A stretch of DNA of 32,741 nucleotides from a virus: positions 1-32,741 of the IMG/VR virus record IMGVR_UViG_3300036828_000741, one strand, 5' to 3'. The notes beneath the pieces are model-generated. The model saw only the letters and a program-made list of their open reading frames with translations, ran no database searches and was not told the DNA's origin. Both the position numbers and the translations under genes were made by a program. The first letter of the stretch is position 1. Each line of letters begins with the position of its first letter. Below are positions 4,998-28,168 of this stretch, in pieces.

Positions 4998-4999
4998 GG

Positions 5000-6680: not shown

Positions 6681-6982
6681 TACGGTGTCTCCTTCCATCC
6701 GCCACCAGACTGGCCAGCACTAGTCCACGCATCCGTGAACCCTGACCCGGCGGCAGGCGCCGCCGGCTTGTTCGGCGCGTTCGACACCGGGATCCGCGCG
6801 CTCGCCTCCGCCAGGTCGTCGACGGCCACCGGCATCCGCGGCGGCCCGACCTGCGACGGCAGCGGCCCAGACACAGGCCGCGACCCGACCGCCGACATAT
6901 CCATGTTGTGCGTGTCGGACTGCTCCCCGCCCGCGCTCATCGAACTCGGGCACAGGTATGAAGGCTTATTGACTTCCTGCAT
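6680..6982 (-). CDS. Small phage protein downstream of capsid
   Basis: A 100-residue protein whose ATG shares its A with the TGA of the upstream gene (TGATG). It is rich in Ser, Gly, Pro and Ala (MQEVNKPSYLCPSSMSAGG, PPRMPVAVDDLAEASARIP) and probably partly disordered. The C-terminus ends GGGWKETP. Its family is not recognised. Tight coupling to the genes on both sides supports it as real; the position suggests a head or head-tail role. Confidence 0.6.
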   Translation of the reverse strand: MQEVNKPSYLCPSSMSAGGEQSDTHNMDMSAVGSRPVSGPLPSQVGPPRMPVAVDDLAEASARIPVSNAPNKPAAPAAGSGFTDAWTSAGQSGGGWKETP

Positions 6983-7503
6983 CAGTACCCCGCACCCGCG
7001 CTGTTGCGGACCCGGCCGCTGCCCGGCTGGAATTCACCGGTGCCCGCCATCGGGGTGTTGCCCTCAACCCCGGGCGCGTTCCAGCCAGGCCCGTACTGCG
7101 CGTCGTTGGCCTGGGTCCAGTCCGCGGTGCCGCCGATCGTGCCCTGCGCGGGCGCCGTGATGTCACCCTGCTCCGTGGCCGCGTCAGGTGTGTGGATGCT
7201 CTTGTAGCCGGCCGTGAACGGCGTGAAAGTCACCGAGTCGGTGCCCGTCAGCGTCGGCCGGCCATTGGACACACCTTGCGTGCCCGGCGCGCCCGTGCCG
7301 CCCAGCGCTGTGCCCACGAATGGCATCGACGACGGGTACTGGCCCTCCATGAGGGTGTCCCCGGTGTCCATGCCGCCGCCAGGGCCCGTGCTGCCCGGCG
7401 CACCCGAGCCCACGTCCTGCGCCAGCAGGCCCGGCCGCATGAAGGTGACGTCGTCCGCGGACTGGCCCTTCTGGTTCACGTTGTCAGAATTGTAACTGGC
7501 CAT
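6982..7503 (-). CDS. Gly/Thr-rich protein encoded after major capsid
   Basis: A 173-residue protein starting MASYNSDNVNQKG, with AAGGGA about ten bases before the ATG. Composition is extreme in Gly, Thr, Pro and Ala with little hydrophobic core (DVGSGAPGSTGPGGGMDTG, VEGNTPMAGTGEFQPGSG), suggesting an extended or disordered protein. It follows the capsid gene after a hairpin array. A decoration or minor head protein is possible, but nothing specific is recognised. Confidence 0.6.
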   Translation of the reverse strand: MASYNSDNVNQKGQSADDVTFMRPGLLAQDVGSGAPGSTGPGGGMDTGDTLMEGQYPSSMPFVGTALGGTGAPGTQGVSNGRPTLTGTDSVTFTPFTAGYKSIHTPDAATEQGDITAPAQGTIGGTADWTQANDAQYGPGWNAPGVEGNTPMAGTGEFQPGSGRVRNSAGAGY

Positions 7504-7525
7504 TTCGGGCCGTCCCTTTCATCTC

Positions 7526-7682
7526 TGTGCTACACTGTGCTACACGTCGCCCAGACTCGGCGCGGAGGCCAAAGTCACGACGGCGGCGTACGCCCGCCCA
7601 GACTTCACGCGAAGGCCAAAGTCACGACGGCGGACGCCCGCTCAAAGCTCGAACGTTTCCCAACACTGTAACGGCGGGCGTA
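7526..7682 (+). repeat. Triple hairpin array with promoter-like repeat
   Basis: TGTGCTACACTGTGCTACAC (7526-7545) contains TACACT at 7531-7536. Three related units follow, each with a CCCAGACT- or CTCAAAG-like 5' loop, a CCAA centre and an ACGGCGG end: arms CGTCGCC (7545-7551)/GGCGGCG (7582-7588), TACGCCCGCC (7589-7598)/GGCGGACG (7629-7636), and ACGCCCGC (7634-7641)/GGCGGGCGTA (7673-7682). Units 1 and 2 share GGCCAAAGTCACGACGGCGG. The outermost TACGCCCGCC pairs perfectly with GGCGGGCGTA 75 bases away, so alternative folds exist. Confidence 0.7.
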
Positions 7683-7684
7683 GA

Positions 7685-7731
7685 CGGGGCTGGGCCAGGA
7701 AGCTGCCCCACAGCGAAATGGCCCAGCCCCG
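7685..7731. terminator. Long hairpin downstream of major capsid gene
   Basis: CGGGGCTGGGCCA (7685-7697) and TGGCCCAGCCCCG (7719-7731) form a perfect 13-bp stem with a 21-base loop, starting seven bases past the capsid stop codon as transcribed leftward. There is no T-run on either side, so this is either a non-canonical terminator or a 3'-end stabiliser of the capsid message. It lacks the CCCAA/CCAA loop motifs of the dispersed hairpin family. Confidence 0.55.
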
Positions 7732-7738
7732 CCGGCTG

Positions 7739-9016
7739 TCAGGTGCTGGCCGTCTTCACCGCACCGGTCTGGTCCACGAGGACACCATCCCCGCGGATCA
7801 GCGCCCGGAACGCCACCAGATCCGACCCGAACAGGTAGTCATCGGAACGCTCGAAGCGCACCGGCCCGACGATCCGCACAAAGAACTGCGAGAAGTCGCC
7901 GAACAGGACCACCTTGTTACCGGTCGCACCCAGCGCCGGCATGTACGGGTCCGCCACCAGCGGCTTGCCCAGCAGCAGGTCAGGCGACCCCAGCACCATC
8001 GAGGGCTCCCAGATGGGGCGCCCGTTCGCGTCCACGATCAGCCGGAACGACCCGATCGTCTTGTCCGCCGCGAGCCAGTAACAACTGCGCGACTGACGGT
8101 ACGGGGCGATCACCGAGTACTCAAGGTTGACCAGGTTCGCGTACGACGCCCCTGAGATCGCCACACCCGTCACACCCGCGGCCGCGGACGTGATCAGCCC
8201 AGTGGGCTGCGCCGTCCCAGTACCGGTCACCAGGTCCGACCCGAACTTGTTCCCCAGCGCACGGCCCGCCTGCATGGCCAGGTAGCCGACAAGATCGACA
8301 CCCGAGTCATCCAGCAGTTCCCGCGCCACCTGGAGCAGGATGCCGTACTTGTACGCACCCAGCGTCGCCAGCCCGAACGTCGGGTCCGCCGTGGCGAGAC
8401 CCGCACCCTGGGCCGCAGACGCCGCGGTGGAGTGCTGCGTGGTCTTCGGGATCTGCAGCGTCTCGCCGCCGGCCGTGTTCAGCACGGTCGGACCAGTCTG
8501 CAGCACACCGGACACCTCAATAAGGTGAGCGATCAGCTGGTCATAGAAGTCGATGGGAATGATCGACGCACCAGCTGACGTGCCACCAGACGGCGTCGGG
8601 CCCGGGCCCGTGAGGGTACGCAGGTTGATCGGGCCGTAGTTCCAGTCGATCCGGCTGGACTCCGGCCGGGCCACCTCCATGGAACGCGGGGCACCCGGGT
8701 CGCCACGCAGGAACGCCCGGAATTCCTCGTTCAGCCTGCGGTGCGTCGGGGGAGCGGACGCCATTTCCTTCTTCGCCTCACGCGAGGTGAGCGCATTAAA
8801 GGTCTTGTCGGCCTCGGCGGCACGCTTCTCGGCGTCAAGCGCACTCTTAATGCGCTTGTCCAGCGTGTCCATTTCCTCATTCATCACGTCCCAGGTGCCC
8901 TGCTCCTCAGCGGAGAAGGCACGGTTCTCGGACGCGGCGCGGTCGGCAAGAGCCTTGCACTCTTCCCAAACCTTAAGGCGCCTGTCACGCAGGGCCTTGG
9001 TCACTTCACTGGCCAT
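7739..9016 (-). CDS. HK97-fold major capsid protein
   Basis: The start is ATG 9016 (MASEVTKALRDRRLKVW), eight bases after AAGGAAA; an in-frame extension to 9088 lacks a good ribosome site. The 425-residue product has the phage capsid (HK97 family) layout: a charged coiled-coil scaffold region at about residues 1-95, a linker, then the core with INLRTLTG, GGTSAGASIIPIDFYDQLI, LQTGPTVLNTAGGETLQIPK, ELLDDSGVDLVGYL and a C-terminal VVLFGDFSQFFVRIVGPVRFERSDDYLF. The scaffold region is expected to be removed by the protease encoded just upstream. This is the main building block of the capsid shell. Confidence 0.95.
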   Translation of the reverse strand: MASEVTKALRDRRLKVWEECKALADRAASENRAFSAEEQGTWDVMNEEMDTLDKRIKSALDAEKRAAEADKTFNALTSREAKKEMASAPPTHRRLNEEFRAFLRGDPGAPRSMEVARPESSRIDWNYGPINLRTLTGPGPTPSGGTSAGASIIPIDFYDQLIAHLIEVSGVLQTGPTVLNTAGGETLQIPKTTQHSTAASAAQGAGLATADPTFGLATLGAYKYGILLQVARELLDDSGVDLVGYLAMQAGRALGNKFGSDLVTGTGTAQPTGLITSAAAGVTGVAISGASYANLVNLEYSVIAPYRQSRSCYWLAADKTIGSFRLIVDANGRPIWEPSMVLGSPDLLLGKPLVADPYMPALGATGNKVVLFGDFSQFFVRIVGPVRFERSDDYLFGSDLVAFRALIRGDGVLVDQTGAVKTAST

Positions 9017-9105
9017 GATGGTTTCCTTTCTCTGGGCCAGTACCTGATTTCTGTGACCTCGGCCTGGGCAGGAGGTCCGGGGATGCAAGCTGTGCTATCC
9101 CTTGA

Positions 9106-9231
9106 TACACTGTGCTACGCCAGCACGCCCAAAGGTCTTACGGCACCTAGAAGCAGCGCGGCGTGCTGGCTGTAGTGCCAGCACGCCTAAAGGTGGCGCG
9201 CACGCCAGAGCATGAGCGGCGTGCTGGCACT
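9106..9231 (+). repeat. Tandem pair of hairpin elements with identical arms
   Basis: Copy A has GCCAGCACGCC (9119-9129) and GGCGTGCTGGC (9160-9170), a perfect 11-bp stem. Copy B has the same arms at 9177-9187 and 9218-9228, extending to 14 bp (9174-9231). Loops differ after a shared AAAGGT: copy A allows AGGT/ACCT pairing, copy B TGGCG/CGCCA. TACACT (9106-9111) lies seven bases before the first arm, with TGTGCTA-like sequence on both sides. The copies lie between capsid and protease genes, antisense to both. Confidence 0.8.
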
Positions 9232-10240
9232 ACTCATCCCCGTCCGCAAAATATGGGTCATGCTTGCGCGGGAGCATGAGCGCGGCGGCCTGCGCCCCGA
9301 ACAGCGTGCGCGGGCTGGGCCGGCTCACATGCGTGGGCGACGGGCCGGCCTCGGTCCTGGTGAGGACGGTGCGCAGTTCCCCGTTCTCGGCGAGGGAGCG
9401 GATCTCGTCGACGGACGCCTGCACATAGTTGGCCAGCGACGCGAGGGCCGCGCTGGTCGCACGTACCGCCGCCGTCGCGTCCGGGTAGCCGGGCGACAGG
9501 ACCGGTGCCACGTCAATCAGGTCCACGCTGTGCAGGGTGCGGCGCGGGAAGTTCTGCTCCGTCACGTCCCATTCGTCGCCGCCCGGGTTGACCCGGAACG
9601 CGAACGAGGAATGCCGGATGTCACCCCGCTGCACGAGTTCCCGCACGTCAGACCGCGACTCCGGGGGCAGGACCTGGTAGTCGAGGCCCATCTGGTCGGG
9701 GCGCAGCCGCAGCGTCCCCGCCGCGGTGGTGCCCAGCACAAAGTTGGCGTCATGGTTGAATCGGCAGACCACGTCATGCCAGTCGCCGGCCTTGGCGTCG
9801 TCGAAGGCGTGCGGCGCGACCCGCTCGACGAACCCGCCGAGGTTACGGGACATGCGGGGCATGAACACGGTGGCGTACCCGCCGATCCATTTCCCGTCGC
9901 TGCCCATGTCCCGCATTTCGAGGGGCCATGACAGGTCGCGGTACTGGCTGGTGATCCGCAGCTCGCGGATCTCCTCATCCTGCGACAGGCTGTTCTCGCC
10001 ACCGACGTTGACCCCGAACCGCTTCGCGGCGGCCTTGATCTTGCCCATGGCTTTCTCGCCGAAGGGGGACTGGCTGGCCCGGGCCAGCGCGTTCCTCACG
10101 TGTGCCGCGTCGTGCACCGGGAAATGCCGCAGCGACCGGGGTGTCGTCTTGCCGCCGCTGTCCTTCGTGCCGCCCGGCTCGATGTACGCGAAGGCGGAGT
10201 CGGGAAGGTCGTTGACCGACGCGCTTGTCAGTTCCGCCAT
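9230..10240 (-). CDS. HK97-family prohead (capsid maturation) protease with extra N-terminal domain
   Basis: A 336-residue protein. Residues 95-255 match HK97 prohead proteases: GGYATVFM, F-ERVAPHAF, RFNHDANFVLGTT with the likely catalytic His163, LDYQVLPPESR, and GDIRHSSFAF with the likely Ser211 or Ser212. Residues 10-80 form a separate module (FPVHDAAHVRNALARASQSP, KIKAAAKRFGV) seen in other actinophage head proteins but not in the minimal HK97 protease. The ribosome site GAGG is about 11 bases upstream. Location between portal and capsid genes is typical. It should cleave the capsid scaffold during head maturation. Confidence 0.92.
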   Translation of the reverse strand: MAELTSASVNDLPDSAFAYIEPGGTKDSGGKTTPRSLRHFPVHDAAHVRNALARASQSPFGEKAMGKIKAAAKRFGVNVGGENSLSQDEEIRELRITSQYRDLSWPLEMRDMGSDGKWIGGYATVFMPRMSRNLGGFVERVAPHAFDDAKAGDWHDVVCRFNHDANFVLGTTAAGTLRLRPDQMGLDYQVLPPESRSDVRELVQRGDIRHSSFAFRVNPGGDEWDVTEQNFPRRTLHSVDLIDVAPVLSPGYPDATAAVRATSAALASLANYVQASVDEIRSLAENGELRTVLTRTEAGPSPTHVSRPSPRTLFGAQAAALMLPRKHDPYFADGDE

Positions 10241-10310
10241 CTGACCATTACCTCTTTCTCATACCGGCCGCGGACGGCCACTGAGCTCCGCGCGGCTCGG
10301 AGCAGACTGA

Positions 10311-12138
10311 TTACCTGGGTTGCGACCCGCTGCCGTTCAGCACGAATCCTTCAGACATTTTCCTGAGCTGCAGCAAGGTCTGGGCGGCGCTGCCCGCCGT
10401 GTTGGGGGCGGGCTGCGGGGCAGGTGCGGGGATGGGCAGGGCACGCAGCTCGGTTTCCGCTGGGAGATCCTTCACGATCTCGTCGAGGATGCCCTTGGTG
10501 CGGGCCTTCCCTGCCTTGCGCCGCCGGGTGCCCGATTCCTCATCGTCGAGGCAGCCGGCCCGCTGGGCGAGGGTGACCCAGTCGCTGGCGCGCTGCCGGT
10601 CGGTGCGGGTGGCGAGCTGGTGCGGCGGCCCGAAGAAGTGATCCCGTGGTTCCTCTTCCTCAATGCCCCGGTCCCGCGGGGCGCCTGCAGCTCCAGTGAC
10701 TGGGCCGGCGGGCTCAGTGCGCTGCTCCTCACCCTGGCCGTTCTTACTGCGGAACGTGGTGAGCTGCCGGCCGAGATACGCGGTGGGGGTGACCGCGATG
10801 GGCGGGACACCAGGCTGGTCCTCAGCGGTGAGGCCCTTGGCCTGCAGTTCCTCCAGCATCTCCGCCGCGAGGGTCGCTTCCATGGTGACGTCGTTCATGT
10901 AGCTGTTCGGGATGGCGCGCGTGGTCGACGCCATCCGCTCCAGGACCTTCAGCGGGATGAACTCGTTACCGCGGCTGCCCGGGTACGGTGGCAGGTCCTC
11001 GATCGCGCGGATCTCGTCGATGGTCCGCAGGCCCATGTCCCGCCAGGCGGCCTCGATCTGCACCCGGGACTTCAGGTCGGTTTTCAGCAGCGCGTCGGTG
11101 TTGAACCGGGCGAACTGCGGTTTGGGCAGCAGCTGGGTGAACAGCCCTTCCAGCCGCACCAGCCACGGCCGCAGCGTGTCGGTGATCAGCGACAGGGTTT
11201 CCTGTTCCTGCGTGCTGTACGTCAGGGAGTCACCGCGGGCGCCGCCGACCTTAGTGGGCGGGACACCGTAGACCGCGGCGATCTGGGTGGCGTTCAGCTG
11301 CATCGCCTGGATGAACGCGGCCTCGTTCGGCGGGACCACGACGGGCTTGTAATCCCAGTCTTTGCCGTACACGAGGGGCTGCCGCAGCTGCAGGGTCTCG
11401 GTGAGGCGCCGGCGGATCTCCTTCGCGTCGTTCTCGCCGACTTCCTCGGCGAGGTTCTGGAAGGTGCCGGGCGGGAACCCGCCGTTGCGGAACCACGTCG
11501 CGGTGTACTGCAGGGCGTCGATGCCCTGTTCCATCAGCAGCGCGAACGCGCGCAGCGGGGACACCGCGGCGAGCTTGCCGGGCACCACGAACGCGCGGAC
11601 CTGCACCAGCTGCTGCCGTGGGATCTGCTGCCCGTCGAAGTACACTTTCGCGGCGCGGGTGTTGAAGGGCTGCTGCTCGTCGTCCTCAACGCTGACCCGC
11701 TCAGGGGGCAGCCATTCGATGGTCTGCGGGTAGCCCAGCCCATTCGGTGAGTTCACCCCGGTGCGGGAGGAGATCAGGCCCCACGAGTTGCCCCACAGCA
11801 GCGCGGACGTCATGGCCTGGAACAGCCAGTCGTAGATGGTGGTGCTGGGGTCCGCGGACGGGTTGTCGAGCAGCTGGCTGCCTGGCAGCTTGATCTGTGA
11901 CCCGTCGGGGTTCATCCGGTACACGTTGACCGGCAGGGAGGCGACCGCGTCGGCGATGTACCGCACGCAGGAATACACGGCGGCCAGGCCCAGCACCCGG
12001 TCGGCGCCTGTCACCTGCTCGCTGGGGTGGACCGGGCCGCCAGTATTAAATTTCCAGTAAGTACGGGTTCCGCCAGGGCTGCCACGGCACGCCACCGATG
12101 GTGCGGTACTCCGTGTTAACCCGGTCGAGAAGACCCAT
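10311..12138 (-). CDS. HK97-family portal protein with apparent 1-nt frameshift
   Basis: The body (10311 to about 12057) is a clear HK97-type portal: FNTGGPVHPS, VYSCVRYIADAVASLP, LLWGNSWGLI, PLRAFALLMEQGIDALQYTATWFRNG, and MQLNATQIAAVYGVPP. The best start is ATG 12138, eight bases after GGGAGGTG, but that frame (MGLLDRVNTEYR, GGVPWQPWRNPYLLEI) stops after 30 codons, at 12046. Removing one base from TACTTAC near 12057-12064 joins the frames as WRNPYYWKFNTGG, a natural portal sequence. The conserved frame stays open up to 12200, but that extension overlaps a hairpin element. A GTG at about 12147 in the body frame is an alternative start. Sequencing error, mutation or programmed shift remain open. 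The C-terminus is long and charged. Confidence 0.85.
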
Positions 12139-12163
12139 TCCTGATTCACCTCCCTTCCTGCGC

Positions 12164-12239
12164 TACTGTGTGCTGCCGTTGTTTCTGGGTGCCCGCTCAA
12201 ATTTCCAGCGTCTAGCCAAATCCGTAGCGGCGGGCACTC
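12164..12239 (+). repeat. Hairpin element with -10-like hexamer
   Basis: Arms GGGTGCCCGC (from 12187) and GCGGGCACTC (12230-12239) pair with one wobble. The loop begins TCAAATTT and contains CAGCGTCTAGCCAAA, the family's inner CCAA motif. TACTGT (12164-12169) lies about 18 bases upstream of the arm. It sits between the portal start and the lectin-like tail gene stop. Confidence 0.75.
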
Positions 12240-12242
12240 TTT

Positions 12243-13757
12243 CTATGGCCCCATATAGCCGGTGCTTGAGGCGCCGATGTCGTCGAGCCAGTAGGTGAAG
12301 ACCGTGGCGCTGGACCCGGACTGGCCGAACTGCACGCTGGAGATCGTCCCGGCCGTGGCACTGGTGGTACTGGTGACCGTCTGGTCTGGGGTGGTGCCGT
12401 TGACGTTGGCGCCGACGTAGATCTGGATCTGTGCCGACCCGCTGGCGGCGTCACCAATCAGGTAGCCCTCGATACGGTTCCAGCCGGTGGACAGCGTGGT
12501 GGTGGTGGAGACCATGGTGCCGCCGCTGGCGTTCAGCGCCCGGATCGTGCCCGTGGTGGTGATGACGAGCGAGCCGCAGATCGTGGCGCCCCCTGACGTG
12601 TTGTACCAGGCGACGATGCGGTAGTTCCCGGCCGGCGCGGTACCGGAGTAGTACACGTAGGCGCGGACCCACAGCTGCGTGTACCCGCCCGCGCCGAGCT
12701 TCGGGCCCCACCGGGCGAGTGCGAAGTGTGAGGTACCGGAGGTGGACACCTTGCAGGACAGCGTCCCGCTGTGCGCCTGCGTGCTGTCGAAGTTCAGGAA
12801 GTCCGTGCCCGGGGTGGTGAGGGTGACCGCGTCGAAGTTCGTGTCGCCGGTGCCCGCCGACGTGGTGGTGACAGCGGCGCCGTTCGTGCCGCCCTCGAAG
12901 CTGTAGGTGATGCCCGCGGTGGTCACGGCAGAGCCCGAGCCAGCCGCCCCGGCACCAGCCAGCGCGGCTGTGCTCCTGACCGTGGCGGTGGCGGTGGCGG
13001 TCCCGGCGCCGGCCAGTGTGGCCGTGCTGCTGACTGCCGCCCTGGCGCTGGCGGTCCCGGCGCCTGCGATGCCCGCGGTGGCCTGCACTGGCCCGCCGCT
13101 GACCGTGGAGGCAGCGCCGGCGGTGCCTGCCCCGGCGATCTGCGCGGTGGCCTGCACGAGGACCGTGGAGGCCGCGCCGGCGGTGCCTGCGCCGGCGATC
13201 TGCGCGGTGGCCTGCACTGGCCCGCCGCTGACGCTGGCCGTGGCCCGGGCGGTGCCCGCACCGGCCAGCGCGCCGCTGACCCGCCACCCGCCGAAACTGG
13301 ATGCTGCGGCCGCGGTGCCTGCCCCGGCGATCTGCGCCGCCCAGGACAGCGGCAGGAACCCCTGCGTGAAGGTCACCCCGCCGGCGGACGCCCACGTCGC
13401 CTTGACCGACGCCGCAGCGTTCACCCCGCCTGCCGCGGCAAAGTCGGCGATGATGAGACCGGATACGAACGTCTGGCTGTTCGTCATATCCGGGTAGAGG
13501 TAGAAGTTCCGCGGGTACCCGTCCGTCGCAGCGACGTAGGTCTGGCTGGTCGCGTCGTCATAGAACCCGCTGAACGACCCGCTAGCGTCGTCCAGCGACG
13601 GGACCTGGATGAGCATGCGGTCGCGGATCGACGTCACATCGGTCCAGGCCAGCGCCCAGTCGACTTCCCAGTCGGACAGGTACGCGATGGGTGATGCCTG
13701 GCTGCCGAACGTCTGCCCGAGGTACACGATGCCGCGTTTCCCGTGCAGCCGTCCCAT
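12243..13757 (-). CDS. Lectin-like minor tail protein with AGAGTA repeats
   Basis: A 504-residue protein whose ATG overlaps the upstream TGA (TGATG). Residues 1-136 look like a tail attachment domain (IAYLSDWEVDWALAWTD, DRMLIQVPSLDD, FYLYPDMTNSQTFVSG). Residues 137-283 are about nine Ala/Gly repeats with an AGAGTA core. Residues 284-504 form a jelly-roll-like domain from TYSFEGG to YWLDDIG-SSTGYMGP, parallel to that of the protein at 1-1719. It likely contributes to receptor or sugar recognition at the tail tip. A tail gene located between sugar-modifying genes and the portal, upstream of all head genes, is an uncommon order. Confidence 0.78.
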   Translation of the reverse strand: MGRLHGKRGIVYLGQTFGSQASPIAYLSDWEVDWALAWTDVTSIRDRMLIQVPSLDDASGSFSGFYDDATSQTYVAATDGYPRNFYLYPDMTNSQTFVSGLIIADFAAAGGVNAAASVKATWASAGGVTFTQGFLPLSWAAQIAGAGTAAAASSFGGWRVSGALAGAGTARATASVSGGPVQATAQIAGAGTAGAASTVLVQATAQIAGAGTAGAASTVSGGPVQATAGIAGAGTASARAAVSSTATLAGAGTATATATVRSTAALAGAGAAGSGSAVTTAGITYSFEGGTNGAAVTTTSAGTGDTNFDAVTLTTPGTDFLNFDSTQAHSGTLSCKVSTSGTSHFALARWGPKLGAGGYTQLWVRAYVYYSGTAPAGNYRIVAWYNTSGGATICGSLVITTTGTIRALNASGGTMVSTTTTLSTGWNRIEGYLIGDAASGSAQIQIYVGANVNGTTPDQTVTSTTSATAGTISSVQFGQSGSSATVFTYWLDDIGASSTGYMGP

Positions 13758-14356
13758 CAGTAATGCTCAGCGATGGTGTCGGGGCACATGGCCCACCGCG
13801 CGCCGGCCTGCATCCACCGGTCCGCGATGTCCCAGTCGATGGTGGCCTCACCGGTGCGCCAGGTCGCGAACCTGGTGTCCACGCCGCGGCGGTGCGCCAT
13901 CCCTGACGTGTCGATCTGGGTGTAGGCGGGCGGGTCGGCGCCCACCGCGCTGCCCTGCGCGTGGATGAACACCCGGCCGTAGGCGAAGTCGGTGAGCGGG
14001 TCCTCGAAGAGTTCCGCGAGGCGCTTGCACGCCATCGGCAGGTAGGCGTTGTCGTCGTCGAGGTAGGCGATGATGTCACCCTCGGCGATCTCCAGCCCGC
14101 GCAGCCGGGCGTGCACACCCCACGAGCTTGGTTCCACATGGGCGGGGAGCTGCTCGAAGCGCACTGCGTGTTTCCGCGGCCGGGCGGCCGGTTCCTCAGC
14201 GGAAATCAGGTCGGCGAGCTGCGGGTCAGGCCCGTCGGACACGATGACATGCTCGACCCACCGGTACGTCTGGGCCTGAACTGACGGCATGCAGCGGCCC
14301 AGCAGCAGCTCGTGGCGGCGCCATGTCGGCGTGATAACGCTGATTGTGGGCTTCAT
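13757..14356 (-). CDS. GT-A family 2 glycosyltransferase
   Basis: A 199-residue, single-domain GT2 enzyme: SVITPTWRR at residues 6-14, HVIVSDGPDP, GLEIAEGDIIAYLDDDN with the metal-binding Asp triplet at 100-102, and WMQAGARWAMCPDTIAEHY near the end. Its length covers the nucleotide-binding half and a short acceptor part. The ATG at 14356 has no strong Shine-Dalgarno; the epimerase gene ends 15 bases upstream. It belongs to a four-gene sugar/tail cassette (15782-12243) and probably acts on a virion or tail glycan; the donor is unknown. Confidence 0.85.
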   Translation of the reverse strand: MKPTISVITPTWRRHELLLGRCMPSVQAQTYRWVEHVIVSDGPDPQLADLISAEEPAARPRKHAVRFEQLPAHVEPSSWGVHARLRGLEIAEGDIIAYLDDDNAYLPMACKRLAELFEDPLTDFAYGRVFIHAQGSAVGADPPAYTQIDTSGMAHRRGVDTRFATWRTGEATIDWDIADRWMQAGARWAMCPDTIAEHY

Positions 14357-14371
14357 GCATCATGACCAAGA

Positions 14372-15220
14372 TCAGCGGACCTGCTGCTGATAGCCTGCGA
14401 GCCAGTTGCGATACCAGTCGATGGTCTCGCACATCAGGTACGGCCAGGTGGACTTGACCACGGGCTTGCTGGCCACCACGTCGGCGCCGAGGGGCTCACC
14501 GGGCCGCCCAGCGGTGATGCGCAGGACGTGGCTGTCAGAGCCGGTGGCGACAGCAATGTCGAGGGCCACGTCGAGGACGCTGATGGCCCGGCCGGTGCCC
14601 GCCTCGGTGACCTCACCGTACGGGCCGTCCAGCGCGTCCACGAGGACTTTCGCCACTTCCGTGACGTGCACCATGTCGATGCGCTGGGAGCCGTCACCGT
14701 ACACTTCCAGCGCCATGCCGGTCAGGGCGCGGCACGTGAAGCTGGGGAAGATCTTCCGCACCGGGGACGGGCCGTGCGGCGCGCATGGCTTCTGGCCTGG
14801 CCCGTACACGTGGTACGCGCGGACCACGGCGATGCGTTCCCCGCCCCACTGCGCCCGGGCCAGGGCGAGATCCTCAGCGGCGGCCTTGGTGATCGCGTAC
14901 GTGTTGGGCTGGCCGCGGTGACCGGTGCCGATCTGGACCACGGGGATGTTGAGCGTGGCCCCCAGCTCGTACACGTTGACCGCGCCGAGAATGTTCACCC
15001 AGGCGGCGTGGTGCTGCCGGCCATGCAGTTCGCTGGTGCCGAGGACGCCGGCGAGGTTGATGATGCCCTCGGCTTCCAGCCCTGCGGCTACCTCCAGCTC
15101 ACCGGCGTGCCGTATGTCATGCGGTGCGTCGAAGGACAGGTACTCGTGCCCGCGGGCGGCGAGTTCCTCACGGACGGCCAGGCCGATGAAGCCGTTAGAC
15201 CCGGTTACCAGCACTTTCAA
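14372..15220 (-). CDS. NAD-dependent sugar epimerase/dehydratase (extended SDR)
   Basis: I start at TTG 15220, nine bases after GGAGG; this gives 282 residues and puts the Rossmann motif VTGSNGFIG at residues 5-13. The catalytic Tyr108-x3-Lys112 lies in NTYAITK, the fold continues with AGVLGTSEL and VYGPGQ, and MVHVTEVAKVLVDAL is typical of extended SDR proteins. It overlaps the methyltransferase stop by 26 bases. Together with the neighbouring methyltransferase and GT2 it suggests synthesis of a modified nucleotide sugar. Exact reaction (epimerase, dehydratase or reductase) cannot be fixed. Confidence 0.88.
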   Translation of the reverse strand: MKVLVTGSNGFIGLAVREELAARGHEYLSFDAPHDIRHAGELEVAAGLEAEGIINLAGVLGTSELHGRQHHAAWVNILGAVNVYELGATLNIPVVQIGTGHRGQPNTYAITKAAAEDLALARAQWGGERIAVVRAYHVYGPGQKPCAPHGPSPVRKIFPSFTCRALTGMALEVYGDGSQRIDMVHVTEVAKVLVDALDGPYGEVTEAGTGRAISVLDVALDIAVATGSDSHVLRITAGRPGEPLGADVVASKPVVKSTWPYLMCETIDWYRNWLAGYQQQVR

Positions 15221-15782
15221 GACGCTGGACCTCCAGTTTGCGGCTGACCCACATGGAGCCAACGATCCTGTCCTGCATGGCCTGCTGGCCCATCACATCG
15301 GTGAACGCCCTGTCCACCGCGGCCTTCACGCCGGGGCAGCAGCAGTCTTCCAGATAGTCATGCACCGCGACCACACCACCGGGAGCCAGCAGCGGCAGCG
15401 CGGCCGTAATGTCAGCGGAGCAGGCTTCATAGCTGTGGTCACCGTCGATGAAGATGAACCCGAAATACTTTTCCCGCAGGCCGAACAGCCCATGCGGGCT
15501 GCCTTCCTGGATGATGGTCACCCGGTCGCCGACACCGAAGTTGTCCAGGGCGGTGCGCATCGGCTGGATGGACTGCAGCCAGATGTGCGGGTCCACGGCG
15601 ACGATGCTCTTAGCGCCGGCCAGGGCCATGCAGATGGCGCTGTACCCGAATGCGGAACCGATCTCCAGGACACGCTGACCCGCGGCGAGCTCCCCCAGAA
15701 TCGCTGATTCCTCTTCGAGGATGGAGGTGCTGATGCCTGGCCGGCCGGGCGCGGGGGAGCGGTACACCCAGGGCAGATGCAT
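15195..15782 (-). CDS. Class I SAM-dependent methyltransferase
   Basis: A 195-residue protein with motif I VLEIGSAFGYSA (38-49), an acidic end of strand 2 in VAVDPH, and FIFIDGDHSYEACSADI followed by LLAPGGVVAVHDY. This set is typical of the Methyltransf_24/CmcI-like group, many members of which methylate sugars or small molecules. The ATG is two bases after the upstream stop and has only a weak ribosome site, so it relies on coupling. It is co-operonic with an epimerase and GT2, so sugar O-methylation is the best guess. Confidence 0.85.
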   Translation of the reverse strand: MHLPWVYRSPAPGRPGISTSILEEESAILGELAAGQRVLEIGSAFGYSAICMALAGAKSIVAVDPHIWLQSIQPMRTALDNFGVGDRVTIIQEGSPHGLFGLREKYFGFIFIDGDHSYEACSADITAALPLLAPGGVVAVHDYLEDCCCPGVKAAVDRAFTDVMGQQAMQDRIVGSMWVSRKLEVQRLESAGNRV

Positions 15783-15783
15783 G

Positions 15784-16098
15784 TCAGGTCACCCGCGCCA
15801 GTTCCGCGCGGAGCTGCGCGTTCTCCGCCAGCACCTGTTCCAGCGCCGGCTGGGTGAGCGGTGTGCCGCGGGCTTCCCGCCAGCCGGTCCGGACCGCGAC
15901 CGCGCACCACGCACCGGAGAAGAACAGGATCGTGAAGAACTTCGCGGCCAGCCAGCCGATGAGGAAGAAGAACGAGGCGATGACCGCGAGGATGACGCGG
16001 CCCGGCTGGACCTGATGGGCTTGCGCGGTGATCTCGTCGAGGTGACGCCGCTCCGCGAAGCTGGGCGGCACGATCACATTGTCGGTGTCAGCGGTCAT
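15784..16098 (-). CDS. Small membrane protein
   Basis: A 104-residue protein with two closely spaced hydrophobic segments (VILAVIASFFFLIGWLAA and FFTILFFSGAWCAVAV), a soluble N-terminus of about 35 residues and a C-terminal helix (EQVLAENAQLRAELARVT) that may form a short coiled coil. Its ATG overlaps the TGA of the upstream 56-aa gene (ATGA). Phage membrane proteins next to terminase genes vary in role; no function is assigned. Confidence 0.7.
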   Translation of the reverse strand: MTADTDNVIVPPSFAERRHLDEITAQAHQVQPGRVILAVIASFFFLIGWLAAKFFTILFFSGAWCAVAVRTGWREARGTPLTQPALEQVLAENAQLRAELARVT

Positions 16099-16265
16099 GA
16101 TGGCGGGGCGATTCCTTTGAGGAGCCGGCTGGGCGGCCGCATCTTCGGCTTGGGCGGGACAACCGGCATGGACGTGATGGCGATGGGCGCGTCGGTCAGC
16201 TCAGTGTCCTCGGTCTTCTCGCCAGCCTTGTGCGCCCACCGGCTGGTCACCTTGGGCAGTTGCAT
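16095..16265 (-). CDS. Small basic phage protein (56 aa)
   Basis: ATG 16265 with AAAGGA about 11 bases upstream opens a 56-residue frame ending in an ATGA overlap with the membrane-protein gene. The product starts MQLPKVTSRWAHKAGEK, has an acidic centre and a Pro/Lys-rich C-terminus (PPKPKMRPPSRLLKG). No known domain. The overlap and ribosome site support it. It lies just after hairpin element 16295-16346. Confidence 0.6.
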   Translation of the reverse strand: MQLPKVTSRWAHKAGEKTEDTELTDAPIAITSMPVVPPKPKMRPPSRLLKGIAPPS

Positions 16266-16282
16266 TGGATATCACTGTCCTT

Positions 16283-16346
16283 TAACGTCGCGCTGGGTGC
16301 CCGCCCAAAATTTGGGCACTGGTCATAGCCGCGACGGCGGGCACCC
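16283..16346 (+). repeat. Hairpin element with -10-like hexamer
   Basis: GGGTGCCCGCC (16295-16305) and GGCGGGCACCC (16336-16346) form a perfect 11-bp stem. The loop begins CAAAATTTGGG and ends GCGAC. TAACGT (16283-16288) stands six bases before the arm. The 3' arm ends two bases before the terminase nuclease stop. Confidence 0.78.
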
Positions 16347-16348
16347 CC

Positions 16349-16906
16349 TCACGCGATGCTCTTGAGAAGATCGTAACCGCGCCCAAACTTGTTGGCTGCC
16401 CATGCGGCGAGGGTCGCGGCACACAGCGGCGTTATGTCAATGGTGGTAGCTTTGCGGGCCCAGGCGTACTGGCCGTCACCGATCTCGCGGCGGACTGCGC
16501 CGGCGACGGCGGCGCTGATGTCGGGCTGGCCCAGGTGGACGATCTTGTGCTCGCCGCACCACGTGTAAAACTGGCCGAAGGCCTGCCCCACGTCCCGCAT
16601 GGTGGGGCAGGTGATCTCCAGGCCGGCCTTCTCCGCTTCGACGAGCAGTGCGGCAGCCGGTGACAGCGGGTCGATCACCATGGCGCACACCCGCACCCGG
16701 GACTTGAGTTCCTTCATCCGCGGGATCACCCAGCTGGTGCCAGCGCGGTGGTCTTCCCACCGCTCGCCCTGCGGGGTGATCTTGACGGGCCGCTCGACCA
16801 GAATCCGCCCGTCCGGGATCAGGCCCGCCAGGACGATGCACGCCGCCGACTGGTCGGGGGTGACATCAGCAGCGATGGCCAGCCGGCCAGGACGCGGAGG
16901 AGGCAT
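16349..16906 (-). CDS. Terminase large subunit, C-terminal nuclease half (split gene)
   Basis: A 185-residue ORF from ATG 16906 (MPPPRPGRLAIAADV), with only a weak AAGAGA upstream. It matches the RNase H-like nuclease domain of actinophage terminases: AADVTPDQSAAC with Asp14, CAMVIDP with Asp79, DVGQAFGQFY, HLGQPDISAAVAGAVRR, and TTIDITPLCAATLAAW with Asp157. These are the expected metal-binding acids. The ATPase domain is a separate ORF at 17094-18167, about 190 bases upstream across a triple hairpin array. In most relatives both domains are one polypeptide. The nuclease should cut concatemeric DNA during packaging, presumably with the ATPase chain in trans. Confidence 0.85.
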   Translation of the reverse strand: MPPPRPGRLAIAADVTPDQSAACIVLAGLIPDGRILVERPVKITPQGERWEDHRAGTSWVIPRMKELKSRVRVCAMVIDPLSPAAALLVEAEKAGLEITCPTMRDVGQAFGQFYTWCGEHKIVHLGQPDISAAVAGAVRREIGDGQYAWARKATTIDITPLCAATLAAWAANKFGRGYDLLKSIA

Positions 16907-16993
16907 CGTTTCTCTTGACTTAGCTACGGGATGCTGCTTGACTGCTACACATCGGGCTTGTCTCACATATGTGGTGCTGGCCGAGACAACCCG

Positions 16994-17157
16994 TGCCGGC
17001 CCTCATGCGGGCGCAGCCCAAGAGCGAGACGGCCGGCAGGGCGCCCGCCCATGGTCATGACTTCTCGCGCATAGATCCGGCGGCGGGCGCCCGCTAAGTG
17101 AGAGGGTGCCCGCCCATGGCTCGAACGCTATCCAATGCTCCATCGGCGGGCACCCTC
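16994..17157 (+). repeat. Three tandem hairpin elements between terminase halves
   Basis: Copy 1 has TGCCGGCC (16994-17001)/GGCCGGCA (17031-17038) with inner GCGCAGCCCAAG. Copy 2 has GGGCGCCCGCC (17039-17049)/GGCGGGCGCCC (17082-17092). Copy 3 has GAGGGTGCCCGCC (17102-17114)/GGCGGGCACCCTC (17145-17157), a perfect 13-bp stem with loop CATGGCTCGAACGCTATCCAATGCTCCATC in which ATGG and CCAT can pair. Copy 3 lies inside the last codons of the terminase ATPase ORF. TGCTACACA at 16943 may be a promoter for the set. Confidence 0.8.
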
Positions 17158-18167
17158 ACCTCAGGCTCACGCCAGGTGCAAGCATTCCACACCGCCTCGG
17201 GTATCACAGCCCAGCCGAATTCGTCGGCGGGCCAGTCCCCGACGCCGAGGCGCTCACGCCGGAATTCCGCGGGGGACATCTTCACGAACTCGCGGGTAAC
17301 ATGCTCGACGGAGATGCGGATACCGAGCCCCGGGTTCGCCTTGGCCCAGGAGTGCACGCTGTCGGGCTCGTCATGCTCACGGCAGCCAGGCAGGCACATC
17401 TCGTGGTGCTCGTTGATGGACCATTCCAACCAGGTCAGCGAGTTGTCGCTGCCATTGATGCCGCGGTTCCGCACCCGGTTCAGCTGCGTCGAATCGGGGT
17501 AGCCGGCGCTGGCGGTGTACCACACCTGAGGATTCGCCACCGCGGACAGGGTGGGCAGCGACGCGCCCACTTCCTCGTCAGTCAGGATCATGGATTCGTC
17601 ATAGAACAGGCAGTCACAGGTGAAGGAGCGGCCGGACCCGCGGGACCGGGCGAGGAAACGCAGCCGTGGCGCCACGGACCGGCGGATCTGGGTCCCTTTA
17701 TGCCCGAAGATCAGTGTCGGGGTGGAGCGGAGCTCGATGGCCTCGTCGCCGTGGCTGGTGCGGATCCCGTGCGGCCGGACTTTGCTCATCAGCCAGCTCT
17801 GTGATTCGACGAGGTCCCGCATCCTGCGGAAGTGCTCGTTGGCGGCCTTGAATTCGTGCGCGGTGTGGATCAGCAGGGACTCGCCGAGGAGGAACAGCCC
17901 AGCGAGCTGGCGGGCCTGCAGGATGGCGTTTTTCCCGTTTTGCCGGCTGACCAGGATGCCGACCTCGAACGCGGACCAGCGGCCGTCGGTGCGGGTGCCC
18001 ATGGCCTGTTCCACAGCCCAGGACTGCCAGTCGTCGAGGCGGAGCCCAGCCTGCCTGGAGAGGTCGGTGGCTTCCTGCCCAGCGGCCGAGCTGGCTGACT
18101 GCGGAATGCAGGACAGGCGCGGGCGCTGATCCCCGATGAGCTCGGTTTCGGCCGGGGCGATGGTCAC
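17094..18167 (-). CDS. Terminase large subunit, N-terminal ATPase half (split gene)
   Basis: A 357-residue ORF from GTG 18167 with GGAGGGG upstream. It carries the terminase ATPase signatures: LRLDDWQSW, Walker A-like VSRQNGKN (73-80), TAHEFKAANEHF, FLARSRGSGRSF, Walker B CLFYDES (186-192, Asp190 and Glu191), TLSAVANPQVWYTASAG and WAKANPGLG. It ends soon after VIPEAVWNACTW, where relatives continue into the nuclease domain. The last 20 or so residues are read from a hairpin element and are not terminase-like. It powers DNA translocation into the prohead; the nuclease half is encoded at 16349-16906. Confidence 0.9.
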   Translation of the reverse strand: MTIAPAETELIGDQRPRLSCIPQSASSAAGQEATDLSRQAGLRLDDWQSWAVEQAMGTRTDGRWSAFEVGILVSRQNGKNAILQARQLAGLFLLGESLLIHTAHEFKAANEHFRRMRDLVESQSWLMSKVRPHGIRTSHGDEAIELRSTPTLIFGHKGTQIRRSVAPRLRFLARSRGSGRSFTCDCLFYDESMILTDEEVGASLPTLSAVANPQVWYTASAGYPDSTQLNRVRNRGINGSDNSLTWLEWSINEHHEMCLPGCREHDEPDSVHSWAKANPGLGIRISVEHVTREFVKMSPAEFRRERLGVGDWPADEFGWAVIPEAVWNACTWREPEVRVPADGALDSVRAMGGHPLT

Positions 18168-18229: not shown

Positions 18230-18514
18230 TTAAGACGCACCAGGTAGCTGGGACATGCGCTGCTCGCGCTGGTGGCGTACCTCGTCCACCGGGTCGATGG
18301 GTGACTTCGCGGGGGCCAGCTCGTAGAGGGTGAGCAGGCAGAGCCGCAGTTCGCGGGTCAGGCTGGCTGCGTCCCGGGCGGACACGCCGGCGTCGAGCCG
18401 GCGCGACAGCATGAGGTAGCTCTCGGCGACGGCACTGCGCTTGTACTGGTCAGGCAGCGCGTTAATATCCCGCTTCGCGGCGGTTTCCACGGAGAGGCGG
18501 CGGCGGCGCTGCAT
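18230..18514 (-). CDS. Probable terminase small subunit
   Basis: A 94-residue basic, helical protein immediately upstream of the large subunit (MQRRRRLSVETAAKRDINALPDQYKRSAVAESYLMLSRRLD, LTRELRLCLLTLYELAPAKSPIDPVDEV). The pattern (LP--Y--SA-AES-L-L-R-LD and L-ELAP) resembles small terminase subunits of other actinophages, which recognise packaging DNA. The ATG at 18514 is seven bases from TACGCT on the minus strand, so the transcript may be leaderless. It is the first gene of the leftward late operon. Confidence 0.65.
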   Translation of the reverse strand: MQRRRRLSVETAAKRDINALPDQYKRSAVAESYLMLSRRLDAGVSARDAASLTRELRLCLLTLYELAPAKSPIDPVDEVRHQREQRMSQLPGAS

Positions 18515-18564: not shown

Positions 18565-18570
18565 GATACA

Positions 18571-18788
18571 GAGCGATGCCCACTGTGGCGGCGTCAGCCA
18601 CAACCGCAACGGCATCGCTCACACGAGCGATGCCCAAAGACAGTACCGCTGGCTGGATGCCCAGAAGGTCCGCCGGCGCAAGGAGTGGGCGGCATCACTC
18701 ACCGGCGGTATGAGCGGGGAGGGTGCCCGCCCAGGTTTGCGGCGGGGACGTAACCCTCCAGGCACTCAGCAGCGGGCACCCTCCCCGC
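18571..18788 (+). repeat. Three tandem hairpin elements in the divergent control region
   Basis: Copy 1 has GAGCGATGCC (18571-18580)/GGCATCGCTC (18611-18620), perfect. Copy 2 has the same 5' arm at 18625-18634 and GGCATCACTC at 18691-18700, with a longer loop. Copy 3 has GCGGGGAGGGTGCCCGC (18714-18730) and GCGGGCACCCTCCCCGC (18772-18788), a perfect 17-bp stem, the longest in the window. They fill the gap between the leftward late operon and the rightward small genes. Confidence 0.8.
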
Positions 18789-18795
18789 TTCGCTG

Positions 18796-18854
18796 TATGG
18801 TGTGCGGGCGCAGCCCAGGGGTCCTGCGGTCTCCACATGCCCTGCGGCTGCGCC
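18796..18854 (+). repeat. Hairpin element with -10-like TATGGT
   Basis: GGCGCAGCC (18807-18815) and GGCTGCGCC (18846-18854) form a perfect 9-bp stem with a loop beginning CAGGGG, in which AGGG and CCCT may pair. TATGGT (18796-18801) ends five bases before the arm. The element lies in the 5' leader of the gene at 18883. Confidence 0.65.
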
Positions 18855-18882
18855 TCACATCCACGGGGGAGACACGGGAATC

Positions 18883-21221: not shown

Positions 21222-21293
21222 GCCCCCGTAGCTCAAGGGATAGAGCACTGGCCTACGGAGCCATGGGTGCGGGTTCGAATCCTGCCGGGGGCA
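21222..21293 (+). tRNA. tRNA-Arg(ACG)
   Basis: The acceptor GCCCCCG pairs with CGGGGGC, the D stem is GCTC/GAGC, and the T arm is GCGGG-TTCGAAT-CCTGC. The anticodon stem is CTGGC/GCCAT (outer pair mismatched) with loop CTACGGA, giving anticodon ACG. CCA is not encoded. It is followed four bases later by hairpin elements. Confidence 0.9.
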
Positions 21294-21296: not shown

Positions 21297-21410
21297 TGAT
21301 GCCTGCCTAACGCCTGGGCGCCCGCCAGCGGGTACGCGGCAGGCATCACTGGGTGATGCCTGCCCAACGGAGATACGGCATCGTGTCCAGGCGGAAGACG
21401 GCAGGCATCA
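21297..21410 (+). repeat. Tandem pair of hairpin elements with identical arms
   Basis: Copy A has TGATGCCTGCC (21297-21307)/GGCAGGCATCA (21338-21348). Copy B has the same arms at 21354-21364 and 21400-21410. Both stems are perfect over 11 bp. Loops differ: TAACGCCTGGG and onward in A, CAACGGAGATACGG and onward in B. The arm sequence is unlike that of the GGGTGCCCGCC elements, but the loop-closing CC-AA and CGG remain. Confidence 0.8.
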
Positions 21411-24012: not shown

Positions 24013-24326
24013 GTCCAGGGCGCCCGCCGCACCTACCATGGCTGGCCGCGCGGCCATTGGGCGGGCGCCCTGGACGCTGCAGGATGAGGCGTGCTGTTCA
24101 CCGACACCCACGGGAAGACCGGCAGGCAGTTCCGTGGGAGGAATGACCTCCGCCTCCGGGGACCCATACGGGACTCAAACCCGTGCCTCCTCATCCATCA
24201 GCACCCGCCGCAACCCTACTGGTGTACGCGCCATAGCTGGGCGGGCCTGGCCCCTCAGCACCGCCGCTGCCCGCATGAAGCATGGCTGGCTACGTCGTTG
24301 GGCGGGCGCTGAGGGTGCATAAATTA
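24013..24326 (-). repeat. Three hairpin elements in reverse orientation
   Basis: As read on the minus strand these match the family. Plus coordinates: GTCCAGGGCGCCCGCC (24013-24028)/GGCGGGCGCCCTGGAC (24060-24075), a perfect 16-bp stem right after the lipoprotein stop; CCCGCC (from about 24204)/GGCGGG (from 24240); and CCCTCAGC-ACCGCC (24252-24265)/GGCGGGCGCTGAGGG (24301-24315). Read leftward their loops start CCCAA or CCCAG and end GCGG. TAATTT on the minus strand (24321-24326) precedes the first arm by five bases, so orientation and promoter agree. The 76-165 bases between copies hold no gene. Confidence 0.75.
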
Positions 24327-25843: not shown

Positions 25844-26168
25844 GCAGGCCGGCGGTGACCACTACCGCCGGCTGTCGCCGCAGCCGATCGAGGTGATCCG
25901 CGCGTGGGGGCTGGGTTTCGAGGACGGCAACGTGCTCAAGTATCTCGCCCGGTGGCGGTACAAAGGCGGTGCCGGTGACCTGCGGAAGGCACGGCATTAC
26001 CTGGACCTGCTCATCGAGGAACTGGAGCGTAACCCGGCCTGGGCCGATGCTGGCGCCTGGGTCCGGCCGGAGGCTGGCAGAGACGTCCCGCCCAAGGATG
26101 TTGCGGATACCAGCGACGGGACGGCGGGATGGGGTGGGCCCACCCAAAGCGTGAACGACGGCCAATGA
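25827..26168 (+). CDS. DUF3310-family protein (nucleotide-kinase-related)
   Basis: GTG 25827 follows GGGAG. The product contains AGGDHYRRLSPQPIEVIRAWGLGFEDGNVLKYLARWRYKGGAGDLRKARHYLDLLI, the standard DUF3310 pattern (H-Y, P-IEVI-AW, G-VLKYL-RW--KGG--DL-KA--YL). T7 gp1.7, a nucleotide kinase, belongs to this family, but a catalytic role here is unproven. The last 15 or so codons run through the hairpin element at 26136, so its C-terminus is formed from repeat sequence. Confidence 0.85.
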   Translation: MSALDEQAGGDHYRRLSPQPIEVIRAWGLGFEDGNVLKYLARWRYKGGAGDLRKARHYLDLLIEELERNPAWADAGAWVRPEAGRDVPPKDVADTSDGTAGWGGPTQSVNDGQ

Positions 26169-26230
26169 CTGGGCGGTGGGCCCGCCCAATCGCCGGGCGC
26201 AAGCCAAACCCGCAACGGTGGGCCACCGCC
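26136..26230 (+). repeat. Tandem pair of hairpin elements sharing an arm
   Basis: Copy A has GGGCCCACC (26136-26144)/GGTGGGCCC (26175-26183) with inner GAACGACGGCCAATG. Copy B has GGCGGTGGGCCCGCC (26172-26186)/GGTGGGCCACCGCC (26217-26230) with CGGG/CCCG pairing in its loop around CGCAAGCCAAA. The 3' arm of A is the 5' arm of B. Confidence 0.7.
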
Positions 26231-26279: not shown

Positions 26280-26426
26280 ATGATCATTCTTGGCCTGATT
26301 CTGCTGCTGGTGGGGTTCCTGCTCGGCATCTCGATTTTGTGGATCATCGGTGTGGTGCTGCTGCTTGTGGGCCTGGTCCTGATGGTGGCCCATGTCGGCG
26401 GGCCGGTCTCCGGGCGCTGGTATTAG
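26280..26426 (+). CDS. DUF6131-like small membrane protein (48 aa)
   Basis: ATG 26280 follows GGGAGGTGAACC. The product is almost wholly hydrophobic: MIILGLILLLVGFLLGISILW, IIGVVLLLVGLVLMVAHVGG, ending VSGRWY. This matches the short two-helix DUF6131 type common in actinobacteria and their phages. Its stop overlaps the peroxidase stop by four bases, tail to tail. Confidence 0.75.
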   Translation: MIILGLILLLVGFLLGISILWIIGVVLLLVGLVLMVAHVGGPVSGRWY

Positions 26427-28168
26427 CTGGTGGGTGTGGCGGCCGGCGGCTGCGGCCCGGCGTTCTGGCCCAGCGACGGCGCCGGATTGGACCCGGACGG
26501 CACGACACCCGCGAAGGTGAGCAGGTCCGCGATGCTGAACTTCCCGGCGGCCGGCGCGACCGGTGGCGACGGGGAGAAGGACCCATGGGTGATCCCGTGC
26601 GGGTCCAGGCCGATCAGTTTGAGGAGCACATCCACGCAGATGTGAGCGCCCACCGGGCCGAGCTGGGCCTGCTGGAAATCATTAGCGGTGCCGGTGTTGT
26701 CGAAATCATTGGTGGCCGCGCTGGCCTGGTTGTTCAGGAACGCCTCGTACAGCACGTAGAAGAACAGCGGCGTGCCGGTGCTGAACCCGGGCACCGACGA
26801 GGGGATCGCCACGGTGGGGTCGATGGGGGCCAGCCCGTATGCGCTGGCCACGTCCTGGCCGGAAGGCAGCAGATAGCGGAAGCCGCGGGCGAAGTCACGG
26901 TAGGCGATGGAGTTCGAGCCGGCGGGCTGCACCCCGGCGGGCCCGCCGACCGGCATGCCCGCGCCCGTGCCTCTCAGCGGCACGCCGGGTGGCTGGCCGA
27001 ACATCGACTGGCCGATCATGTGCAGCCCGTCGGCGCCGGGCTGCTTGAGGACCTGCAGGGACGCACCCAGCACTGAGGAATCGAAGAGGTCCTCGTGGAA
27101 GTTCCGCCAGTCGATCTGGTGGTCGAGGGTCAGCGGGTACCCGCCGTGCAGGTCACCTGCCGGCGTCAGCGGCACCCCAGTCCCGCCGGCTGGGCCCGTC
27201 GCGCCCGCGACCCCGGCGAACAGGGTGTTCCGCGCGTTCTTGTTGTTCGGTGAGATGACCGGGTTCATGGAGTAGGCGTTCCGGACCAGGCTGTGCCCGA
27301 ACCGGTACGCCGCGGTGGAGAACTCGACGGGCATGATGGGCCGGGCCACGTCCGCGCCCGGGTCGTACACCTGGTGCTTGCCGGAGGCGAGGTCGTCGAT
27401 GACGGACTGGCCGAACAAGGTGGGCATGAAATCATGCAGCGTCGCCCACTGGTAGTAGGAGACCACGGCCCGCTGAGCCGAATTGAAATCCTTGATGTTC
27501 AGCGCGTCCACCACGTTGTTGTGGAACAGCAGCAGCGCCACATGCAGCTGGGACAGGATCTGGTTCTCGTCGTTGCGGGTTTCCACGATGATCGCGGACC
27601 CGTCCGCGCGCCGCGGCAGGTCGATCACGCCGTTGACGTTGGCGGGCACCAGGAAATGCAGCCCGTCGCTGCCGTACAGCTGCGGTGACACCGACGGCCC
27701 GCCGCCGTAGATCTGGGACAGGTCCAGTTTCTTGGATTCGAAGTCGGGAACCACGCTGCCCTGCGGGTCGAGCAGCGGGTCCCGGGCGCTGGTGCCGGCG
27801 AAACTGAAGTCCGCGTCGGGCTGGGGCTGCAGGTCCAGGGTCACGTCATGGTCGATGAACTGCCCCCAGTAGGTGTACGCCGCGCCGTGCGTGGTGTCGA
27901 ACCCGCCACCGGGTTCCAGCATCGCGTCCGCGAGGCCCGCCAGGTTCGCCAGGGACACCGACGGGTCAGTGTCGGGCCGCAGCGGCGCCAGGGACGGGAA
28001 CATGCGGCCGAACGTGGCGGTCTGGCCGTTCTGCCCCGGGACGGGTGACGCGCCCACCGCGGCTGACGCGGGCCCCGCCAGGGCCCGCCCACCGCCTTTC
28101 AGCAGCACCACGGTGCCGGCTGCGCCGAGACCGTACCGGAGAAGCTGGCGGCGGGACATCTCGGGCAT
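26423..28168 (-). CDS. Tat-exported haem peroxidase (animal haem peroxidase family)
   Basis: ATG 28168 follows AGGAGG with nine-base spacing and gives 581 residues. The N-terminus MPEMSRRQLLRYGLGAAGTVVLL is a twin-arginine signal. Family motifs are present in order: AYTYWGQFIDHD with the distal His107, ETRNDENQILSQLHVALLLFHN with Arg198 and Glu201, and YRFGHSLVRNAY with the proximal His292. The C-terminus is Pro/Ala-rich. It should oxidise substrates with peroxide outside the cell. It is about five times longer than its neighbours, on the opposite strand to them, with its own ribosome site. No structural role is expected, so it looks like an acquired cargo gene. Confidence 0.88.
   Translation of the reverse strand: MPEMSRRQLLRYGLGAAGTVVLLKGGGRALAGPASAAVGASPVPGQNGQTATFGRMFPSLAPLRPDTDPSVSLANLAGLADAMLEPGGGFDTTHGAAYTYWGQFIDHDVTLDLQPQPDADFSFAGTSARDPLLDPQGSVVPDFESKKLDLSQIYGGGPSVSPQLYGSDGLHFLVPANVNGVIDLPRRADGSAIIVETRNDENQILSQLHVALLLFHNNVVDALNIKDFNSAQRAVVSYYQWATLHDFMPTLFGQSVIDDLASGKHQVYDPGADVARPIMPVEFSTAAYRFGHSLVRNAYSMNPVISPNNKNARNTLFAGVAGATGPAGGTGVPLTPAGDLHGGYPLTLDHQIDWRNFHEDLFDSSVLGASLQVLKQPGADGLHMIGQSMFGQPPGVPLRGTGAGMPVGGPAGVQPAGSNSIAYRDFARGFRYLLPSGQDVASAYGLAPIDPTVAIPSSVPGFSTGTPLFFYVLYEAFLNNQASAATNDFDNTGTANDFQQAQLGPVGAHICVDVLLKLIGLDPHGITHGSFSPSPPVAPAAGKFSIADLLTFAGVVPSGSNPAPSLGQNAGPQPPAATPTS

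Follow-up and report, generated by a model that had tools for sequence, protein, structure and literature searches.

Two genes for the terminase large subunit in a soil phage, with an array of small hairpins at their boundary

The association of the terminase ATPase with its nuclease was called universal across the Caudovirales in a survey of jumbo phages (PMC7824862). Arthrobacter phages of cluster AY encode the terminase large subunit (TerL) in two genes (PMC11920828, PMC12820723), as exemplified by BillyTP, in which gp2 carries the ATPase domain and gp3 the nuclease domain (PP978841), and by gp2/gp3 of BlueShadow. A literature search under the name "split terminase" found no paper; the precedent appears under cluster AY. 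Other phage genes also exist in pieces, e.g. nrdA with mobE in Aeh1 and gene 43A/43B in phage 25, and the split Aeh1 NrdA and phage 25 gp43 reassemble (PMC2988022).

The soil phage described here is represented by a 32.7-kb virus record (the window, i.e. the whole stretch of DNA that was analysed). Two genes encode its TerL, which very probably works as separate ATPase and nuclease polypeptides joined non-covalently. We assign a probability of about 0.86 to this account as a whole, which includes fission of the gene at the interdomain linker, a route through a short indel in a sister lineage and the later arrival of hairpins in an existing gene boundary. A two-gene TerL has already been published for cluster AY, and the window phage is a new, independent case. 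The window and its relatives add further independent examples from other lineages of TerL, clues to the origin of the split and a hairpin array as its secondary occupant.

The structural genes of the window are on the minus strand, with portal, prohead protease and capsid recognised by Pfam matches, and the two TerL halves were read from genes on the same strand. The ATPase ORF (18167–17094) and the nuclease ORF (16966–16349) are in different frames, are both closed by stops within the gap and match consecutive stretches of one profile, PHROG 9 (terminase large subunit). The ATPase domain ends at about residue 336 (..CTWREPE), and the final ~21 codons (residues about 337–357) are hairpin DNA. 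Walker A (RQNGK, residues 75–79) and Walker B (DE, 190–191) are conserved in the ATPase half, and D14, D79 and D157 of the nuclease half are invariant across 12 homologues. The AlphaFold model of the nuclease half (pLDDT 87.6) is most similar to HK97 TerL (PDB id: 6z6d), followed by the G20c nuclease (5m1f); that of the ATPase half has a mean pLDDT of just 70.8, and its top match is likewise HK97 TerL, which is one chain. The window thus has the packaging-ATPase Walker motifs and the RNase H-like nuclease with three acidic catalytic residues of an HK97-like TerL, but on two genes instead of one polypeptide, each domain still being a TerL member. Consecutive ATPase and nuclease genes with a break within the linker are the arrangement of the cluster AY type. 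The initial annotation had described separate ORFs broken at the linker, catalytic residues intact in both halves and three hairpins in the gap, one of them read as the ATPase C-terminus; frames, stops, PHROG 9 adjacency and fused relatives bear out the break, and the residues and hairpins are as it described them (Table 1).

Table 1. Coordinates of the terminase genes and hairpins in the window.
Feature	Position	Strand	Details
Family hairpin	16295–16346	-	just downstream of the nuclease gene; missing with its flank in L014/L090
terL nuclease gene	16349–16906	-	185 aa, MPPPRPGRLAIAADVTPD..., start ATG 16906; PHROG 9 positions 478–669, E 7.7e-14
Small inverted repeat TTGTCTC/GAGACAA	16958–16989	-	between hairpin 3 and the nuclease start; outside the 52-nt family; read directly
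Hairpin 3	16994–17038	-	8-bp stem, 29-nt loop; weaker family member
Hairpin 2	17039–17092	-	11-bp stem, 32-nt loop; L014/L090 have the same loop sequence
Hairpin 1	17102–17157	-	13-bp stem, 30-nt loop; translated as ATPase tail; R1 56.3 bits over 17104–17155, copy included in the model
terL ATPase gene	17094–18167	-	357 aa; PHROG 9 positions 55–471, E 1e-44; best PDB fold 6z6d, HK97 TerL; Walker A/B
Small gene	18230–18514	-	immediately upstream of the ATPase gene, as a terminase small subunit gene would be
Family sites up to the terL gap	2568–2619, 5450–5500, 7588–7639, 9119–9228, 12187–12239, 16295–16346, 17039–17155		
Family sites beyond the terL gap	18570–18856, 21297–21410, 24018–24070, 26134–26185, 28717–28768, 29946–29999, 31234–31635		

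The small gene next to the ATPase gene has no Pfam or PHROG match. The portal ORF (10311–12200, minus strand) carries a DUF1707 (SHOCT-like) match at residues 530–580, C-terminal to the portal domain. A 627-aa ORF (26423–28306, minus strand) resembles by eye an animal-type heme peroxidase, which is unusual for a phage and may point to cargo or host DNA within the record.

Fused and split homologues were found by scanning IMG/VR with either TerL half as query, and all close relatives are metagenomic contigs. Fused homologues (L015, L016–18, L029, L005–12, L030–40; 55–84% identity) run uninterrupted through the linker, the ATPase and nuclease of L015 being 84% and 74% identical to those of the window; L015, L016, L006 and others locate the break at the interdomain linker. 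L014 (the same contig as L013, L019 and L090) is split as in the window but has a longer hairpin array, with five units in the gap compared to three. L004 (80% identity in the ATPase, 79% in the nuclease) is also split as in the window, with an 82-nt gap that holds no family hairpin (best unfiltered cmsearch score 5.8 bits). A 33-aa ORF in this contig (L004:4869–4970, MTDEQIVLPYPPLRALWICLREHWRHRHAPPAA) overlaps both halves and may be due to chance. Contigs L025–L028 are split without any insert: the two genes overlap by 8 nt in L025 and by 4 nt, ATGA, in the three contigs L026–28 (..CQWEAG-stop / MSEMPRPDR..). A 96-codon ORF with tight junctions on both sides and no phage match lies between the halves in L024 (3699–3989). 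Another group, L061–L070, seemed in a first pass to be split like the window, but there the ATPase frame stops inside the ATPase domain and an overlapping downstream ORF encodes the remainder and the nuclease; this different situation is possibly a frameshift site or a sequence error in another TerL group.

The nuclease most likely starts at ATG 16906 rather than at the listed GTG 16966, because in L014 a 1-nt indel immediately ahead of this ATG shifts the upstream extension out of frame, whereas all 185 residues encoded from the ATG onwards are the same. The ribosome-binding site of the window nuclease is weak and its start is distant from the ATPase stop, so coupled translation is not obvious here. 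The ATPase tail made from hairpin DNA is not conserved: ..REPE is followed by VRVPADGALDSVRAMGGHPLT in the window (tail peptide ..VRVPADGALDSVR), by DERAPAAGLLVNR in L014 and by ND in L004 (..REPEND). The genes themselves are under purifying selection in the window lineage. Between the window and L014, the nuclease has 28 nucleotide differences, 27 of them at third positions and none changing an amino acid, and the compared ATPase part has 41, with three of 150 amino acids changed. Against L004 (NG86), the nuclease gives dN 0.17 and dS 0.96 (dN/dS ~0.18) and the ATPase dN 0.14 and dS 0.66 (dN/dS ~0.21), dS being near saturation in both. Selection therefore keeps both genes intact in their split form. 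A sequencing or assembly error was rejected given these silent nuclease changes and the recurrence of the split in other samples.

In an ML tree of 23 rows labelled as split or fused, the label changes at least twice; the two changes, which fall in the window clade and in L024–L028 (clade support 90/91), are both forced by starred branches. By its position in this tree, the L024–L028 lineage split independently of the window clade. The placement of fused L015 relative to L004 within the window clade has support of only 65/28, so this clade may have undergone either two fissions or a single fission followed by re-fusion, and our ordering of events within it is an inference.

Fission took place at the interdomain linker of terL. 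In the fused genes of L037 and L006, a Met codon stands in frame exactly where the split nucleases start (..GEMPRP.. and ..GDMPRP..), so a 2- or 4-nt change in linker length relative to L037 would suffice for a split, and L026–28, with nothing but the 4-nt ATGA overlap, indicate that a small linker indel is enough. A short frame-changing indel upstream of this Met codon (M-PRP-R) would thus account for the sister lineage, in which the remaining stop/start overlap would couple translation. Given such a boundary, dispersed 52-nt hairpins would have built up in the now wider gap, taking over the end of the ATPase reading frame. Comparison of the contigs suggests that terL was probably split before the hairpins arrived; they seem to have moved into a boundary that was already there, and their copy number varies between relatives.

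The initial annotation had suggested the reverse order, with the split explained by hairpin insertion, and had named in advance a hairpin-free homologue with the same split as its counter-case. Such a homologue was looked for and found in L004. One could still suppose that an array inserted into an intact terL and split it in the window lineage, and that L004 lost its hairpins later: the hairpins sit exactly at the linker and form the ATPase tail, the array length differs between relatives, and L004 has family hairpins elsewhere (6039–6092 and 3725–3774), so its ancestor had the element. This sequence of events is unlikely, however, as the L004 gap retains no hairpin remnant even with filters off, L025–L028 are split without an insert, and hairpins are otherwise solely intergenic in the structural arm.

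The initial annotation also left a choice between a two-chain terminase and an intervening sequence excised from the RNA to restore one chain. The two-chain option, with its break at the linker, stands. Excision is highly improbable, although the gap is structured and its flanks match an uninterrupted linker: gap content is not homologous among split relatives and is absent in L026, gap length varies, the borders of any removed segment differ between the window and L014, and start and stop codons are present in each half. Positions 16800–17260 have no Rfam intron match even at a relaxed threshold, and there are no recognisable intron core or splicing motifs and no in-frame inserted protein domain, in agreement with the annotation's view that neither an intein nor a recognised intron is present. 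Ribosomal bypassing or frameshifting over the gap, with a hairpin role like that in T4 gene 60 and some single-chain TerL as the product, would also make use of a structured gap, and frameshifting is formally possible in L026, where the frames overlap. It has hardly any probability in the window, where stops inside the gap close both frames and the hairpins beside the ATPase end differ from those of L014; known bypass gaps are far shorter than this one. A second intact terL may exist elsewhere, since the record is perhaps incomplete at 32.7 kb. A two-gene terminase, its boundary later occupied by hairpins, accommodates all of the observations, and domain integrity, selection and the parallel with split phage enzymes that reassemble suggest that the two chains would form one motor.

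The hairpins are the less explained part of the locus compared to the split TerL. Family members are ~52 nt long, with an 11-bp covarying stem, free in sequence but paired, and a loop of ~30 nt that contains a fixed motif; the window holds about 20–25 copies. Its 31 stem-motif matches compare with 11.7 ± 3.5 expected by chance, a number that none of 100 shuffles reached. In an alignment of 23 copies (21 from the window and two from L014), nine of 11 stem pairs are changed on both sides, a covariation that is partly circular as copies were chosen for complementarity. The loop has G first, YTGG around positions 10–13, CG near 18–20 and TTG last (roughly G-N8-YTGG-N5-CG-N8-TTG), and, the CC/GG stem ends aside, copies were not chosen for this motif. 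A covariance search with model R1 places nearly all window copies on the minus strand regardless of gene direction (on the plus strand, 24018–24070 is clear and those at 24199 and 29439 are weaker), and finds 8–9 copies in L090 and two in L004. No convincing copies turned up beyond these three in the sequences searched, including 297 actinobacterial genomes of the class (only ~19 candidates per genome scored, hence a weak negative). An exact-stem search of IMG/VR (GGGTGCCCGCC N28-32 GGCGGGCACCC) had no match outside the window; a relaxed pattern gave four contigs, whose isolated, chance-like matches were discarded.

All ten hairpins of the structural arm lie in gene gaps, as would 5% of random placements (gene starts being partly assumed). 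The window and L090 are 93–96% identical in long blocks over 3250–17096, and these blocks break at hairpin loci (7544–7687, 16244–16348 and around 17037–17157); a further break, at 12160–13146, contains one hairpin plus gene differences. Window hairpins at 5450–5500 and 9119–9228 keep the loop motif of their L090 counterparts (2198–2248 and 5791–5904), and those at 9119–9228 also the stems, while the rest of the loop is strongly different, and the loops at 5450, 9119 and 9177 vary more than the stems of 9119/9177 and most flanks. Fast loop change and recombination between hairpins are candidate causes. Two tRNA genes, 21222–21293 (plus strand) and 29491–29562 (minus strand), are also flanked by the family: a hairpin starts within a few nucleotides of the former (21297), and a weak member adjoins the latter on the opposite strand (29439–29490). 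Tentatively, these are undescribed small structured elements of this phage lineage that are gained and lost between genes, with loops changing faster than stems and flanks, and that in the terL gap may adjust how much ATPase chain is made relative to nuclease chain; if so, it is the two-chain motor that makes such tuning possible.

Independent two-gene terminases in unrelated TerL lineages speak against a need for the covalent link, and they offer ready natural two-chain systems for studying ATPase–nuclease communication. Gene callers and TerL-based surveys will meet half proteins in such phages.

Cluster AY phages are a third, sequence-unrelated case. Their ATPase and nuclease genes are likewise consecutive and split at the domain linker, but they overlap by 17 nt, and no hairpins have been reported for them. 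Blastp of the window halves against the AY halves gives no significant similarity (best E 0.28 for the ATPase and 0.02 for the nuclease), and the fissions are apparently independent. As in Aeh1 and phage 25, an essential enzyme is encoded as two polypeptides, which in those phages work together and in the window would do so, and a site that is already split can receive an inserted element; the window has no homing endonuclease between the halves. The hairpins share with the ESAS of cluster K and the palindromes of cluster O a dispersed, mostly intergenic distribution in actinophages and inverted halves. ESAS are imperfect 17-bp inverted repeats with a fixed consensus and a variable spacer, tied to start sites and located upstream of a 13-bp start-associated sequence, and cluster O has a fixed 7+3+7 palindrome (17-bp). 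The window hairpins differ from both: their stems, mostly 9–18 bp, are variable in sequence but paired, and the conserved part is their own motif in the ~30-nt loop.
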